Virus record (IMG/VR): IMGVR_UViG_3300010883_000129
Coordinates: 1 to 37,946 of that record
Strand: one strand, 5' to 3'
DNA length: 37,946 nucleotides
Source of the DNA: a virus
This document shows, one piece after another, positions 1,927 to 17,080 of the stretch. The notes beneath the pieces were generated by a model. It did no database searches and was not told the origin of the DNA. It saw only the letters and a list, made by a program, of their open reading frames with translations. Each line of letters starts with the position of its first letter. Position 1 is the stretch's first letter. The position numbers were made by a program, and so were the translations under genes.

Positions 1927-3182
1927 TTACTTTTCACAAGGAAAGATTAAATTCCCATCAACCTTGATGTAACCAGCATCTTCCATTGCTCTTATGGTTT
2001 GTTCTAACTCCCCGGGATTTGGAATCTTTCTTAATAACTCTCGTTTAAATGCTCGTAGGTTAAGGTGAGTTTTCTTGCCTGCAAGTGTGGCATCTAGCCA
2101 CACCCTCATATCGTGGGCGATACGTCCTGTTCTTGCCATACCAAAACCTTCTAAAGCTTTGGGCATGTGCTGTTCCATCTCAAACATAATCTCTTTGGTT
2201 AATTCCCAATCCTCTAACATGATCTCACGAGAAGATCGTCTTGAAGCTGATATTGATATTGCTATTTTTAAGAAGTGAGATACACGTCTTTGGCAATACT
2301 CCGATAGGTGAGGATCTATTGGTTTTGGTTTTAAGTTATGAAAAATATCTTCATTAGCTTTATCAAATGCATCCTTATGAAAAGTCATAGGCCCATACAT
2401 TTTAGCAATGTGGCTTAAGTCATTACGTAGATTGTTGAGCATACTATCACTAATTACTTTTTGATTTAAGTCTTGTGGTATTTCTTCACCTTCATAGAAA
2501 ATAGGTATTATTCTAGCTAACAATCCTTGTGATCGTGCATCTTCTGGTAAGTTTTCTACAAACTGTTCTGGTGTAGCACAAGCTATCCAATTCAAACAAG
2601 GCCCTTCGATAAGATATTCACCAGACGTTTTTGTCTTGTGGCTGTACTGATCTTTAGCATCCCACATGTCTGTTAAAAACATTTGCAAGTATCTTTCATT
2701 ACGACCCATGAATGTACCAAACTCAGATGTGACAAGAGTAAGTGATGAATCATAGAACTCTGGGTTTTCTTCTGTACATAATCTTAAATCCATACGAGTA
2801 ATCTTAGTCATATCGACCGCAAGTTTCTCTGGTGTAATTCTATCTTGTATAGAATACAAAGGATGATTACGTAATCCATATGCGTCTAAGCCAGAATTAA
2901 AATTATGATCGTCTTCTGTAGCACCTACAGGTGATGTGAGTCTACTAAATACTTTTGAGAAAGGTATTATTAAACTTACTGATTTGTTACGTCCAGGCCG
3001 TGCTATTAATATTACAAATAGGTTGGAACCAATGTTGTAATTAGGCATAGGAAACCAGACTTTTCTACCCAATGCACCTGCGATAGAAGAAATAGCTGTC
3101 CATTGTGCAAATGGTTTTGGTATTGACTATACTTAACTGCATCAACACAAGCCTTTATGTAGTCTGGGTAGTTCCTTGCCAT
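1927..3182 (-). CDS. DUF3987-type helicase/ATPase-like replication protein, interrupted by a frameshift
   Basis: A probable replicative ATPase of the DUF3987 type, judged from layout and weak motifs. The long frame (1927 up to about 3122) contains a degenerate P-loop (ARPGRNKS, Asn in place of the last Gly) after an LGRKVWF...NLFVIL segment, and ends in a winged-helix-like tail. The expected N-terminal part (MARNYPDYIKAC...) is in another frame starting at 3182. In the long frame, codons for PKPFAQWTAISSIAGALGRK lie upstream of the first usable start (a TTG at 3072), so the two pieces appear to be one protein broken by a one-base loss near 3119-3127. A genuine mutation, an assembly error or -1 frameshifting could explain it. 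The start at 3182 has GGAAGGA upstream and overlaps the polymerase gene by 28 bases. Confidence 0.6.
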
Positions 3183-4699
3183 GTTTTCATATCCTTCCAT
3201 GTATCACCAATCTCAACTGAAGATGGTATAATCATTTCACGTCCATCGACCTCCAATGGATTGTGCATTCTTTCCAATACTTTAGGCATTAATTCATCCA
3301 ATTTACCAACAGGGCACTGCCCTAATATAGCATCATGAACTTGACCAAGAACTTCAACGCCTTCACTAGCTAATTCATTCCATACTCTATACAAACCAAG
3401 ATTTAATAAATCCCCTATCGTGGATTGTGGTACATATGCAATAGCTTGTCTGAGTGTAGAGTTGTCGGCTAGCCTATCCCAAAATTGCCTACGTCTCCCA
3501 AATGGTGTAGTCAAACAACCTTTTTCATTTAATTCTAATCGTATAGTTCTATGCCAATCTCGGATGCCTGGAAATGCTCCTTTTATTTTTAGCATTCCAC
3601 CAGACAATTTTTCTGCATGATCTATAAGTTCTCTGAAGCCCCCCTTGTTATCTTGTTTGTGCCAACGTTCTAAAGATTCTAATTGTATCAGACCTCCAAA
3701 ATAAAGCAACTGAAATCGTGTAGCTTGTGATACTTTTATTTTAATTTGACGTGCCAAAGAGTGTGCTGTAACACCATAGTTTGTACCATGTCCTGCACGC
3801 TTACATATGTCACGATAACTATGATGCAAGTAGTAGGGTCTATCAGCTAGTGCTCTATCTTGTTTAGGATCCCCAGACCACCCCATGTTGGGCCAGATCA
3901 TCCTAACAACTTCAGTATGCAAGTCCGTACTTTCACAAACATCTATATAGTTTTGATCGCCAGCTAAATATGCAACCGCTCTAGATTCTGCTTGTTCTAA
4001 ATCCGCATAGAACATTTTCTGTCCTGTGTCTGGAATAAATATAGCACGTAAATCTTTTGTAACATTTTGTAAGTTGGTACCTGTTCGCCACGGACTTTCT
4101 GATGAAGACCAACGACCTGTCTCTGTACCAGCTACATTGTAAGAGCAACGGATACGACCATCTGTATCTCTTGTAGATGCTAGTACGGATAAGTGTTTAT
4201 CTATATCACGTAGTGCTAGTATAGTGTAACAGAATGGTTTGGCTCTAGGATATGTTTCAGACAATTGTTCCAACGCCGCTCTATCTGTAGATATCTTTTG
4301 TTTACCTGCTTTGTAAGATACAACTGGTGGTAGATTCAATTCTTCGTATAATAATTTTTTGAGTTGCACAGGACTGTTATGATTTAAATCTTTGCCCCAC
4401 ACAGCATTTGCAAATAGATGTAACATACGTTCTAATTTTAATCTATTTTTTCTAAGCGGTTCTTTTATACTTCTTACTTTATCTTCATCAACTCTAAGCC
4501 CACGCAACATCATACTCATGGCAGGTTTTAAACTGTCCAATTCAAATTGATAAGTCGATATAGTATCATTGTCTAATTCTTCATATATCTTTGTCCATAT
4601 CTCATGAGTAAGTGTGCAGTCTAAGGCACAGTAAACCCAATTCATTTGGTTCTTTGATAATTCGTGTTTACCTAACTCTGTGTTTTTTATTATTCGCAT
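3155..4699 (-). CDS. polA: Family A DNA polymerase, polymerase part (with Exo III motif)
   Basis: Replicative DNA polymerase of the Pol I fold, 514 residues. The start carries only the end of a 3'-5' exonuclease domain: the Exo III motif Tyr23-x3-Asp27. Polymerase motif A is YADLEQAESR (Asp233), the O-helix motif B runs from Arg296 and Lys300 to Tyr308-Gly309, and motif C is QVHDAI (His455-Asp456). By alignment of motif B with E. coli Pol I, position 762 (Phe there, Tyr in T7, Leu in many marine phages) is His304. Motif C has Ala where Pol I has Glu883. Exo I and Exo II are in the separate gene at 5227-6303. The ATG at 4699 overlaps the upstream small gene by 10 bases and has AGGTGA before it. 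Confidence 0.93.
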   Translation of the reverse strand: MRIIKNTELGKHELSKNQMNWVYCALDCTLTHEIWTKIYEELDNDTISTYQFELDSLKPAMSMMLRGLRVDEDKVRSIKEPLRKNRLKLERMLHLFANAVWGKDLNHNSPVQLKKLLYEELNLPPVVSYKAGKQKISTDRAALEQLSETYPRAKPFCYTILALRDIDKHLSVLASTRDTDGRIRCSYNVAGTETGRWSSSESPWRTGTNLQNVTKDLRAIFIPDTGQKMFYADLEQAESRAVAYLAGDQNYIDVCESTDLHTEVVRMIWPNMGWSGDPKQDRALADRPYYLHHSYRDICKRAGHGTNYGVTAHSLARQIKIKVSQATRFQLLYFGGLIQLESLERWHKQDNKGGFRELIDHAEKLSGGMLKIKGAFPGIRDWHRTIRLELNEKGCLTTPFGRRRQFWDRLADNSTLRQAIAYVPQSTIGDLLNLGLYRVWNELASEGVEVLGQVHDAILGQCPVGKLDELMPKVLERMHNPLEVDGREMIIPSSVEIGDTWKDMKTWQGTTQTT

Positions 4700-4956
4700 A
4701 GTTCACCTGCAATGGCTGAGTAACCCACCATATCAATGTAGGTATCTTTAGTAGGATGTCCAGATTTAGTTCTAGCAACTTTTAAAAGTAGCATCAATAC
4801 GGCAACATCATGTGCAGATATATCGTAACGTAAGTAAGCAGACCATAGATTAGCAATATTTTCATGATTAATTTTTTTATTTCCGTATTCTTTTTCTCTC
4901 TCGCCACTCAACAGCTTTTTTGCTTTCTCTAAATTTTCGTTTATAGTCACTACCAT
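4690..4956 (-). CDS. DUF6378-like small protein
   Basis: An 88-residue protein resembling the phage family DUF6378, recognised by an early Gly-x-Arg-Glu-Lys-x-Tyr-Gly segment, a LWSAYL stretch, and a second half rich in DVAVLMLLLKVAR and DTYIDMVGY motifs. The function is unknown. It sits between the two halves of the split polymerase and overlaps the gene before it by 80 bases in another frame. The start at 4956 places the conserved EKAKKLL segment at residue 9, where the family normally begins. Confidence 0.7.
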   Translation of the reverse strand: MVVTINENLEKAKKLLSGEREKEYGNKKINHENIANLWSAYLRYDISAHDVAVLMLLLKVARTKSGHPTKDTYIDMVGYSAIAGELCE

Positions 4957-5227
4957 ATACCTTCTCCATTAAATTGTTAATTTCTCTTCTAGTTCTTTTT
5001 GCATCTAAATCAGATAGATCACATATCAATTCAAAATCTTCTTTGTCGTTCTCGTACCATTGCCAAGAATATATATGTGCCTTCTTATCTTCTTTACCAT
5101 TACCTTCATACAACAAATCTTGAAGCAATTGATCAAGCACACCTCTCCACAACCTAACATAAGATTCGGATTCGATATCCCATGCACCATCGATGGATTT
5201 AACAGAGAAAAAATTGGGTCGTTTCAC
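4877..5227 (-). CDS. Hypothetical protein between polymerase halves
   Basis: A 116-residue protein of unknown function. It is rich in charged and aromatic residues; the middle has a DFELICDLSDLDAKRTRREI stretch and the C-terminus is strongly basic. It starts with GTG at 5227, overlapping the stop of the upstream UDG/exonuclease gene as TAGTG, which suggests coupled translation. Its last 80 bases overlap the DUF6378-like gene. No nuclease, intein or homing-endonuclease motif is visible that would explain why it lies inside the polymerase locus. Confidence 0.65.
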   Translation of the reverse strand: MKRPNFFSVKSIDGAWDIESESYVRLWRGVLDQLLQDLLYEGNGKEDKKAHIYSWQWYENDKEDFELICDLSDLDAKRTRREINNLMEKVYGSDYKRKFRESKKAVEWRERKRIRK

Positions 5228-6303
5228 TATTCATCGGCTTTTGTGCTATCAGAAAACTTGGCTAAAGTTTTCCATGCACCCTCATTAGTGTATGTGGAGC
5301 CGAGAAATCCAAGACCTTTTTCTAGTTCTGGTTGTAATGAATGTTGTGCATGCATAGTGTCGTGGATTACTCCTTTAACTTCTATGTCTTGCATATACTT
5401 CAACCATGACACATCATACGTTTGATTTTGTGCAACTTTAACTGTAGTCTCGTCTTCTAATAATCTCTTAACCCATGCCCAAGCTTTCTTACGATCTGGT
5501 TCTGACCAATAGTTATATGTAAATGGTACGACTATTGCGTGGTTTAAGGAGGGGGCAAACCCAATACAAGTTATCTGCCCGCCTGCTGTTTCAATATCAA
5601 ATGCTAAAGGCTTGGTGTCACCCAAATCTTTTATGTGTTTACTCTCGAATGTATACAAGTCTTCTAGACTTGGTTCTATCCATAGTTCTCGTTCTTCATA
5701 ATTTATTTTTTGTGTTCTTGATTCTCGTTTTGCTTTTTTGTAATCTGAATAAAGATGATATCTAAATCCATAATTTTTAAAGACGGCTGACGGACTGTAA
5801 GAAGGTATAATTTTGTAATTTCTGTTAAGAGAATCCGTAGAAGATTCAATAACAGCACCCCGATAAACACCAATCTTATCAAAGCCCGTCAATGCCCACA
5901 ATGAAAGACTACCCATAGCAATAATAACATTGGGTTGAGCTTCATTGATTTCATTATACAAACGTTCTAAGTCTTGACCCATCTCCTGTTTGAGATATCC
6001 ATAGGTGGTAATCGGATAAGGCGTTCTCCACTCAGATTCTTTGCATAAAGCTTTGTACTCACTTCTTTTATGGAAGAAGTTTTGTAAGTTGTCCTGTGCA
6101 GGTTTTAATTGAAAGGCGTGGGTGAGCATGCATTTGTCGATGTCAATACCAACTTGTGTACAGATTCTGCTTATAATAAAATCACCTGCAAGTATTTTAT
6201 TTAAACGTACTTCATCATTTGAAGGGTGATCCATAACAATGCAGATCTGTGGTTTATCTACAAGTTGTGATGCAACTCTTCTGTGCACAGCATACTCACC
6301 CAT
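5227..6303 (-). CDS. Uracil-DNA glycosylase-like domain fused to the Exo I/II part of a 3'-5' exonuclease
   Basis: A 358-residue two-part protein. Residues 18-180 resemble the family 4/5 uracil-DNA glycosylase fold: IVMDHPSNDE in place of the usual GEAPG motif, the NVIIAMGSLSLWALTG helix, an RG at 148-149 and SYSPSAVF near 168-175 where the family has an HPS-type motif. The altered motifs make glycosylase activity uncertain. Residues 232-345 are the front of a DnaQ-like proofreading domain: Exo I Asp236-x-Glu238 (FDIET) and Exo II Asn293...Asp297 (NQTYD). The protein then stops soon after GLGFLGSTYTNEGAWK, and the matching Exo III is in the polymerase gene at 3155-4699. The two products probably assemble into one proofreading polymerase. 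Confidence 0.82.
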   Translation of the reverse strand: MGEYAVHRRVASQLVDKPQICIVMDHPSNDEVRLNKILAGDFIISRICTQVGIDIDKCMLTHAFQLKPAQDNLQNFFHKRSEYKALCKESEWRTPYPITTYGYLKQEMGQDLERLYNEINEAQPNVIIAMGSLSLWALTGFDKIGVYRGAVIESSTDSLNRNYKIIPSYSPSAVFKNYGFRYHLYSDYKKAKRESRTQKINYEERELWIEPSLEDLYTFESKHIKDLGDTKPLAFDIETAGGQITCIGFAPSLNHAIVVPFTYNYWSEPDRKKAWAWVKRLLEDETTVKVAQNQTYDVSWLKYMQDIEVKGVIHDTMHAQHSLQPELEKGLGFLGSTYTNEGAWKTLAKFSDSTKADE

Positions 6304-16864: not shown

Positions 16865-17080
16865 TTAATATAATTGATTAATGTTAGTCACTTGTACTTT
16901 TACAAATGGTTTTGGTGTATGTTTATGTTTTGATTTAGAATTCATAATCATATATATGCCATTAAATTCGTTTTCATCTCTAGTTTGTTTAGGCAAGTCT
17001 TTAAAAGGTATAGATATTGTTACTCTTTTACCTTTTTTAAACGCTTTAATTTTGTTTAATTGTTTATTTATAAAATTCAT
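16865..17080 (-). CDS. Small basic hypothetical protein
   Basis: A 71-residue, Lys-rich protein (LNKIKAFKKGKRVTISI) with a beta-like middle. GAAGGGA precedes the ATG at 17080. A 14-codon upstream frame (17077-17121) ends in an ATGA overlap with this start. Early position suggests a host-takeover role, by inference. Confidence 0.55.
   Translation of the reverse strand: MNFINKQLNKIKAFKKGKRVTISIPFKDLPKQTRDENEFNGIYMIMNSKSKHKHTPKPFVKVQVTNINQLY

Follow-up and report, generated by a model that had tools for sequence, protein, structure and literature searches.

The locus described here raises the question of whether a phage DNA polymerase whose exonuclease motifs are spread over two genes can still act as one proofreading enzyme. 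It lies in the IMG/VR virus record IMGVR_UViG_3300010883_000129, whose 37,946 bases were analysed as a whole and are referred to below as the window. Our preferred reading, which we hold with a probability of roughly 0.85, is that the replicative polymerase of this marine phage is a heterodimer. Chain 1 would contribute a UDG-like domain at its N terminus and the portion of the 3'-5' exonuclease that bears Exo I and Exo II, the Exo III helix and the whole polymerase would come from chain 2, and the two would fold together into one Klenow-type enzyme with a composite proofreading site.

Two chain genes in a four-gene locus

The four genes of the locus are on the minus strand, in the order chain 1 (6303-5227), an unnamed gene (5227-4877), a DUF6378 gene (4956-4690), and chain 2 (4699-3155). 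Every adjacent pair overlaps: the stop of chain 1 and the start of the unnamed gene have one base in common (TAGTG), the unnamed gene and the DUF6378 gene overlap by 80 nt, and the DUF6378 and chain 2 genes by 10 nt, leaving the gap without untranslated sequence. The earlier note had placed two genes between the chains; both were recovered, and the overlap of all four genes refines that description. Elsewhere in the window, at about position 17000, the genes and the GC skew both flip strand, with replication genes on the minus and structural genes on the plus strand around the switch.

Chain 1 (5227-6303, minus strand, 358 aa) combines a UDG-like domain with the Exo I and Exo II motifs of a family A DNA polymerase. 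It matches the Pfam family PF01612 (exo1) over profile positions 12-129 of 173 only (E 4.9e-11), and the end of the exonuclease fold is absent from this chain. Exo I is the D-I-E motif at 5590-5598 (FDIE; D236 and E238), and Exo II the N-x-x-Y-D motif at 5413-5427 (QNQTYD; N293 and D297), both on the minus strand. The UDG assignment is weak for the window protein alone, which reached 23.4 bits against the curated PF03167 cut-off of 24.3 bits; the profile built from the family alignment of chain 1 matched family 4 UDG structures with an E of 1e-21. The motif B histidine of UDG is a serine in the window (YSPS); in split representatives this position is histidine in 35/42 and serine in 6/42. Judged from this histidine-to-serine change, the UDG domain (about 5700-6250) may be inactive in the window's branch.

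Chain 2 (3155-4699, minus strand, 514 aa) begins with the Exo III motif Y-x3-D (WVYCALD; Y23 and D27; 4619-4633, minus strand) and continues with a complete family A polymerase domain (PF00476, E 1.9e-43), including the D of motif A, the R, K, and Y of motif B, and the H-D of motif C. The motif assignments made in the earlier note, a UDG-like protein ending in Exo I and Exo II and a downstream gene with Exo III and all polymerase motifs, thus hold at both sets of coordinates. The Exo I, II, and III motifs of the family A 3'-5' exonuclease are all present, but on two chains.

Several features of chain 2 were observed in passing. The fingers region contains an insertion of about 40 residues (window 3575-3697; LIQLESLERWHKQDNKGGF...), which is common to marine relatives and is found neither in Caulobacter phage Kuura nor in intact fusions. 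Position 762 (E. coli numbering) is histidine in 42/42 split and 57/60 intact representatives; in the accessible part of a survey of virioplankton PolA, this position is discussed as Phe, Tyr, or Leu. In split representatives, alanine or serine stands in place of the glutamate of motif C (883).

Phage proteins that combine UDG, exonuclease, and polymerase in one chain are already known, including that of Pseudomonas phage PaBG (PMC7412058). These phrog_17 fusions (Microcystis phage Mel-JY34, Manatee Spring phage ctMlz233, and PaBG) share the domain order and the motifs of the window, and those of Mel-JY34 and ctMlz233 align over both halves; they differ in consisting of one chain, whereas the window has two genes, cut between Exo II and Exo III, with two others between them. 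The two halves match phrog_17 consecutively, chain 1 at 478-796 and chain 2 at 807-1238, and both match the single Klenow chain 1d9d_A, at 17-122 and 170-602, respectively; a profile of intact phage fusions matched 1d9d_A in one stretch (22-588). This alignment to intact phage polymerases, which the earlier note had proposed as a check, bears out its claim that the cut lies in the segment linking Exo II and Exo III.

If the 605 residues of 1d9d_A are numbered 324-928, like the other Klenow entry, the cut corresponds to approximately residues 445 to 493. On this numbering, it probably falls in the segment of the exonuclease domain between helices E and F, a segment that is mobile in the DpoZ structure and that other PolA enzymes lack or have in divergent form (PMC8599892). 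Two free ends could be tolerable in such a variable segment. From the Exo II aspartate to the Exo III tyrosine, intact proteins have 66 residues versus a summed 84 in the split clade; the ends of the split chains therefore carry extra sequence.

The same cut in a clade of phages

A protein search of phage records gave Caulobacter phage Kuura as the nearest relative (38% identity), and further relatives were collected by scanning IMG/VR. Among the classified entries, 177 are split at the same breakpoint (about a dozen being the same contig twice, which leaves about 165 distinct records), 88 are fused, 10 are without the upstream part, the contig beginning near the polymerase in those inspected, and 5 have another arrangement. 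Of these five, three (L125-L127) are split at the same point, their Exo III region being diverged, and the interruptions of the other two (L048 and L051) lie elsewhere. In bacterial genomes, a scan returned only six distant relatives. Relatives whose chain 2 is 89-94% identical to that of the window have the same four-gene order and a 527-nt gap; at 65-78% identity the slot between the chains is kept, with gaps of 503-608 nt.

An assembly rearrangement had been named in the earlier note as the finding that would overturn its view. Many independent viral contigs repeat the gene order, and about 165 distinct records share the breakpoint, which excludes both chance and mis-assembly; the split is real. 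It is present in an isolated phage as well: Kuura (OQ067476, PMC9959647) has the same cut and two gap genes, with 36% identity in chain 1 and 44% in chain 2, but its gap genes are unrelated to those of the window. The accessible part of the Kuura paper (PMC9959647) makes no mention of the split.

The history of the split was examined in a tree of the polymerase part, built without the Exo III region and without inferring a root. The split representatives form one group (44 rows, SH-aLRT 100 under LG+G4), and the intact UDG-exo-pol proteins stand opposite them (54 rows, SH-aLRT 100), with one stray, L225, inside the intact group. In a mixture-model tree with fewer rows, from which L225 was left out, the split label needs a single change (support 94). 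These topologies suggest that the split arose once, long ago, in one clade; we infer the direction from intact to split because single-chain PolA is widely distributed. As for the stray itself, L225 (2213-4642) has a lone in-frame stop between Exo II and Exo III, at the same place as in the split clade, possibly through a sequencing error or through a split of independent origin.

Retained catalytic residues and compatibility with one fold

Had either chain been released from a role in proofreading, its exonuclease residues should no longer be conserved. Among 42 split representatives, the D and E of Exo I are invariant (42/42), the N of Exo II is present in 42/42 and its D in 41/42 (one E), and the Y and D of Exo III are present in 42/42, as well as in 60/60 intact representatives. 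The polymerase residues D, R, K, Y, H, and D are each found in 42/42. The distances in the exonuclease part are correlated with those in the polymerase part, with an r of 0.79 for split and 0.90 for intact proteins, although linkage alone can give such a correlation.

The junctions indicate how the two chains may be made. In most lineages without a gap, the stop codon of chain 1 abuts or overlaps the chain 2 start codon (GTGA, TAATG). A Shine-Dalgarno-like AGGTGA lies in the end of the window's DUF6378 gene, just upstream of the chain 2 start (4700-4709, minus strand), and a motif of this kind stands ahead of that start in 28/38 representatives compared with 19% of random ATGs. Because of these sites and the touching or overlapping stops and starts, the chains are separate but probably coupled in translation, and the overlapping genes together with the Shine-Dalgarno-like sites would probably keep the two chains in balance.

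Whether the split sequences fit one fold was assessed by AlphaFold2. The two chain genes of the window are out of frame with two others between them, and the model was therefore made for a relative, L152, whose halves are adjacent in one frame; reading the in-frame TGA as W gives a linked chain. The model had a pLDDT of 93.9 and a pTM of 0.90, and pLDDT was below 50 only at residues 324-343, that is, the end of chain 1 and the linker; chain 2 opens with a short strand, and its Exo III helix is predicted with confidence. By VIA-align, residues 177-825 matched residues 298-876 of the single-chain Bst Pol I (2y1i_A) with a Z of 31.3 and an rmsd of 3.2 over 538 aligned residues, and residues 175-825 matched Klenow 324-928 with a Z of 30.4. 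The model aligned to Bst Pol I and to Klenow as one unit across the junction. The split sequences thus still appear to fit one Klenow-type fold, which speaks for compatibility rather than for binding: the chains were linked, and of the 114 other rows in the alignment, 40 were intact fusions, which favour an intact fold, the remainder being separate halves.

It could be argued that the chains form no joint exonuclease, chain 1 being a separate UDG-like or nuclease protein and chain 2 a polymerase without proofreading; the chains are indeed separate genes, and UDG-like proteins can act alone. However, the Exo III residues of chain 2 and the Exo I and II residues of chain 1 are all kept, chain 1 by itself is without the end of the exonuclease fold, and the joined model is confident, which makes this separation of functions very unlikely. 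The two-chain proofreading enzyme that the earlier note considered plausible is, by comparison and modelling, well supported: the same cut is found across a deep clade, both chains have kept their catalytic residues, and the joined model is one Klenow-like fold.

The gap slot, its genes, and the meaning of a proposed bipartite polymerase

The unnamed gene of slot 1 (4877-5227, minus strand, GTG start, 116 aa) is kept in all close relatives. Its product is predicted to consist of five helices (AlphaFold2, pLDDT 84.5). The predicted fold had no PDB match with an E below 3, the window protein matched no Pfam family and only weakly matched PHROG families, and Foldseek returned weak matches to uncharacterised tailed-phage proteins (best E 0.012). 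A distant relative, gp19 of pelagiphage HTVC023P, is encoded well away from a polymerase that is annotated as one 1,875-nt gene. Slot 2 holds the DUF6378 gene (4690-4956, minus strand, 88 aa; PF19905, E 1.7e-29).

Across the split loci the slot is variable. With some duplicated contigs included in the counts and family names taken from scanned representatives, it holds the unnamed gene with DUF6378 in 79 loci, the unnamed gene with DUF3310 in 30, KTSC-like genes in 22, DUF7768-like genes in 16, and HNH endonucleases (HNH_3) in 7; other contents are DUF1937, an NrdR-like zinc ribbon, RNase H, and assorted orphans, and in 10 loci nothing lies between the chains. Since its content is varied or absent, the split requires no particular content. 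After a single old split, unrelated small genes would have entered the slot, left it, and been followed by others. The exchange of DUF6378 and DUF3310 takes place at the same position, between the unnamed gene and the polymerase, and hints at related roles for the two families.

The earlier note had suggested that the inserted proteins could be assembly partners. As a general explanation this was not borne out: the split exists with an empty slot, the contents vary, DUF6378 occurs in 1,486 phage records, and the HTVC023P relative of the unnamed protein lies elsewhere. A narrower form, in which the gap proteins, above all the unnamed one, serve specifically in assembly or form a third subunit, can point to the one-base overlap of the unnamed gene with chain 1 and to its retention in the complete loci of the window's clade, where, within the searched contigs, it was seen in slot 1 only (167 loci). 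Yet elsewhere among the split lineages the slot is empty or holds unrelated genes, and DUF3310 replaces DUF6378 in relatives even near the window (L091-L114 and others) while slot 1 stays constant. We regard this narrower form as quite unlikely; a clade-specific role is conceivable only for the unnamed protein in the marine branch.

Phage polymerase genes often contain group I introns (PMC10580990), and the gap might therefore be taken for a self-splicing intron, or the chains for halves joined by a split intein into one protein. Against an intron, the entire gap is taken up by coding genes, each of which overlaps its neighbours, leaving no room for one, and neither the window nor 11 relatives gave an Rfam match to a group I intron. 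Intein halves would need much longer chain ends, and in gapless relatives each chain has its own stop and start. Both candidates were rejected, and splicing of either kind is hardly credible here.

How the split began is a separate matter, compatible with the heterodimer. An HNH homing endonuclease gene that landed within the exonuclease coding sequence is a fair candidate, at somewhat less than even odds. HNH_3 genes occupy the slot in seven loci, and phage nrdA and T4 gene 60 are cases of genes split by homing endonucleases (PMC2988022); but the HNH genes are scattered and in the minority, belong to several types, and sit at different slot positions, and for these reasons may have arrived only after the gene was split.

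Phage enzymes split by homing endonucleases can still work (PMC2988022), as in phage Aeh1, whose split NrdA is fully functional (PMC2988022). The split gp43 of Aeromonas phage 25 (PMC2988022) is likewise a phage replicative polymerase in two chains, which co-purify with polymerase activity; gp43 is a family B enzyme and has no cut in a family A exonuclease domain. In the OM43 phages MEP401 and MEP402 (PMC10580990) and in Vibrio phage VS-ABTNL-3, a family A polymerase is encoded in two genes with a small gene between, but the cut lies inside the polymerase domain and the exonuclease is whole. For the OM43 phages, the authors suspected an intron (PMC10580990); in VS-ABTNL-3 (L048, 2878-6012) one gene separates the parts. 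Split phage polymerases are thus already known; a limited search of the open-access literature turned up neither a split PolA with a UDG domain nor a cut inside the exonuclease, and nothing on this clade.

A more far-reaching proposal is that family A polymerase is an obligate two-subunit enzyme in a large phage clade, with proofreading tuned by the supply of chain 1 and the marine slot protein acting as a regulating third subunit; taken together, these parts are rather unlikely. The heterodimer itself, if confirmed, would mean that a branch of environmental phages replicates with a polymerase that comes in two parts by nature, both being needed for its proofreading site. It would provide a natural split point for polymerase engineering and a possible natural way of varying proofreading. 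The slot would be a well-defined hotspot, showing how an essential phage operon can take in small genes while its enzyme stays functional, and gene callers and PolA-based surveys may count such viruses as having no complete exonuclease.
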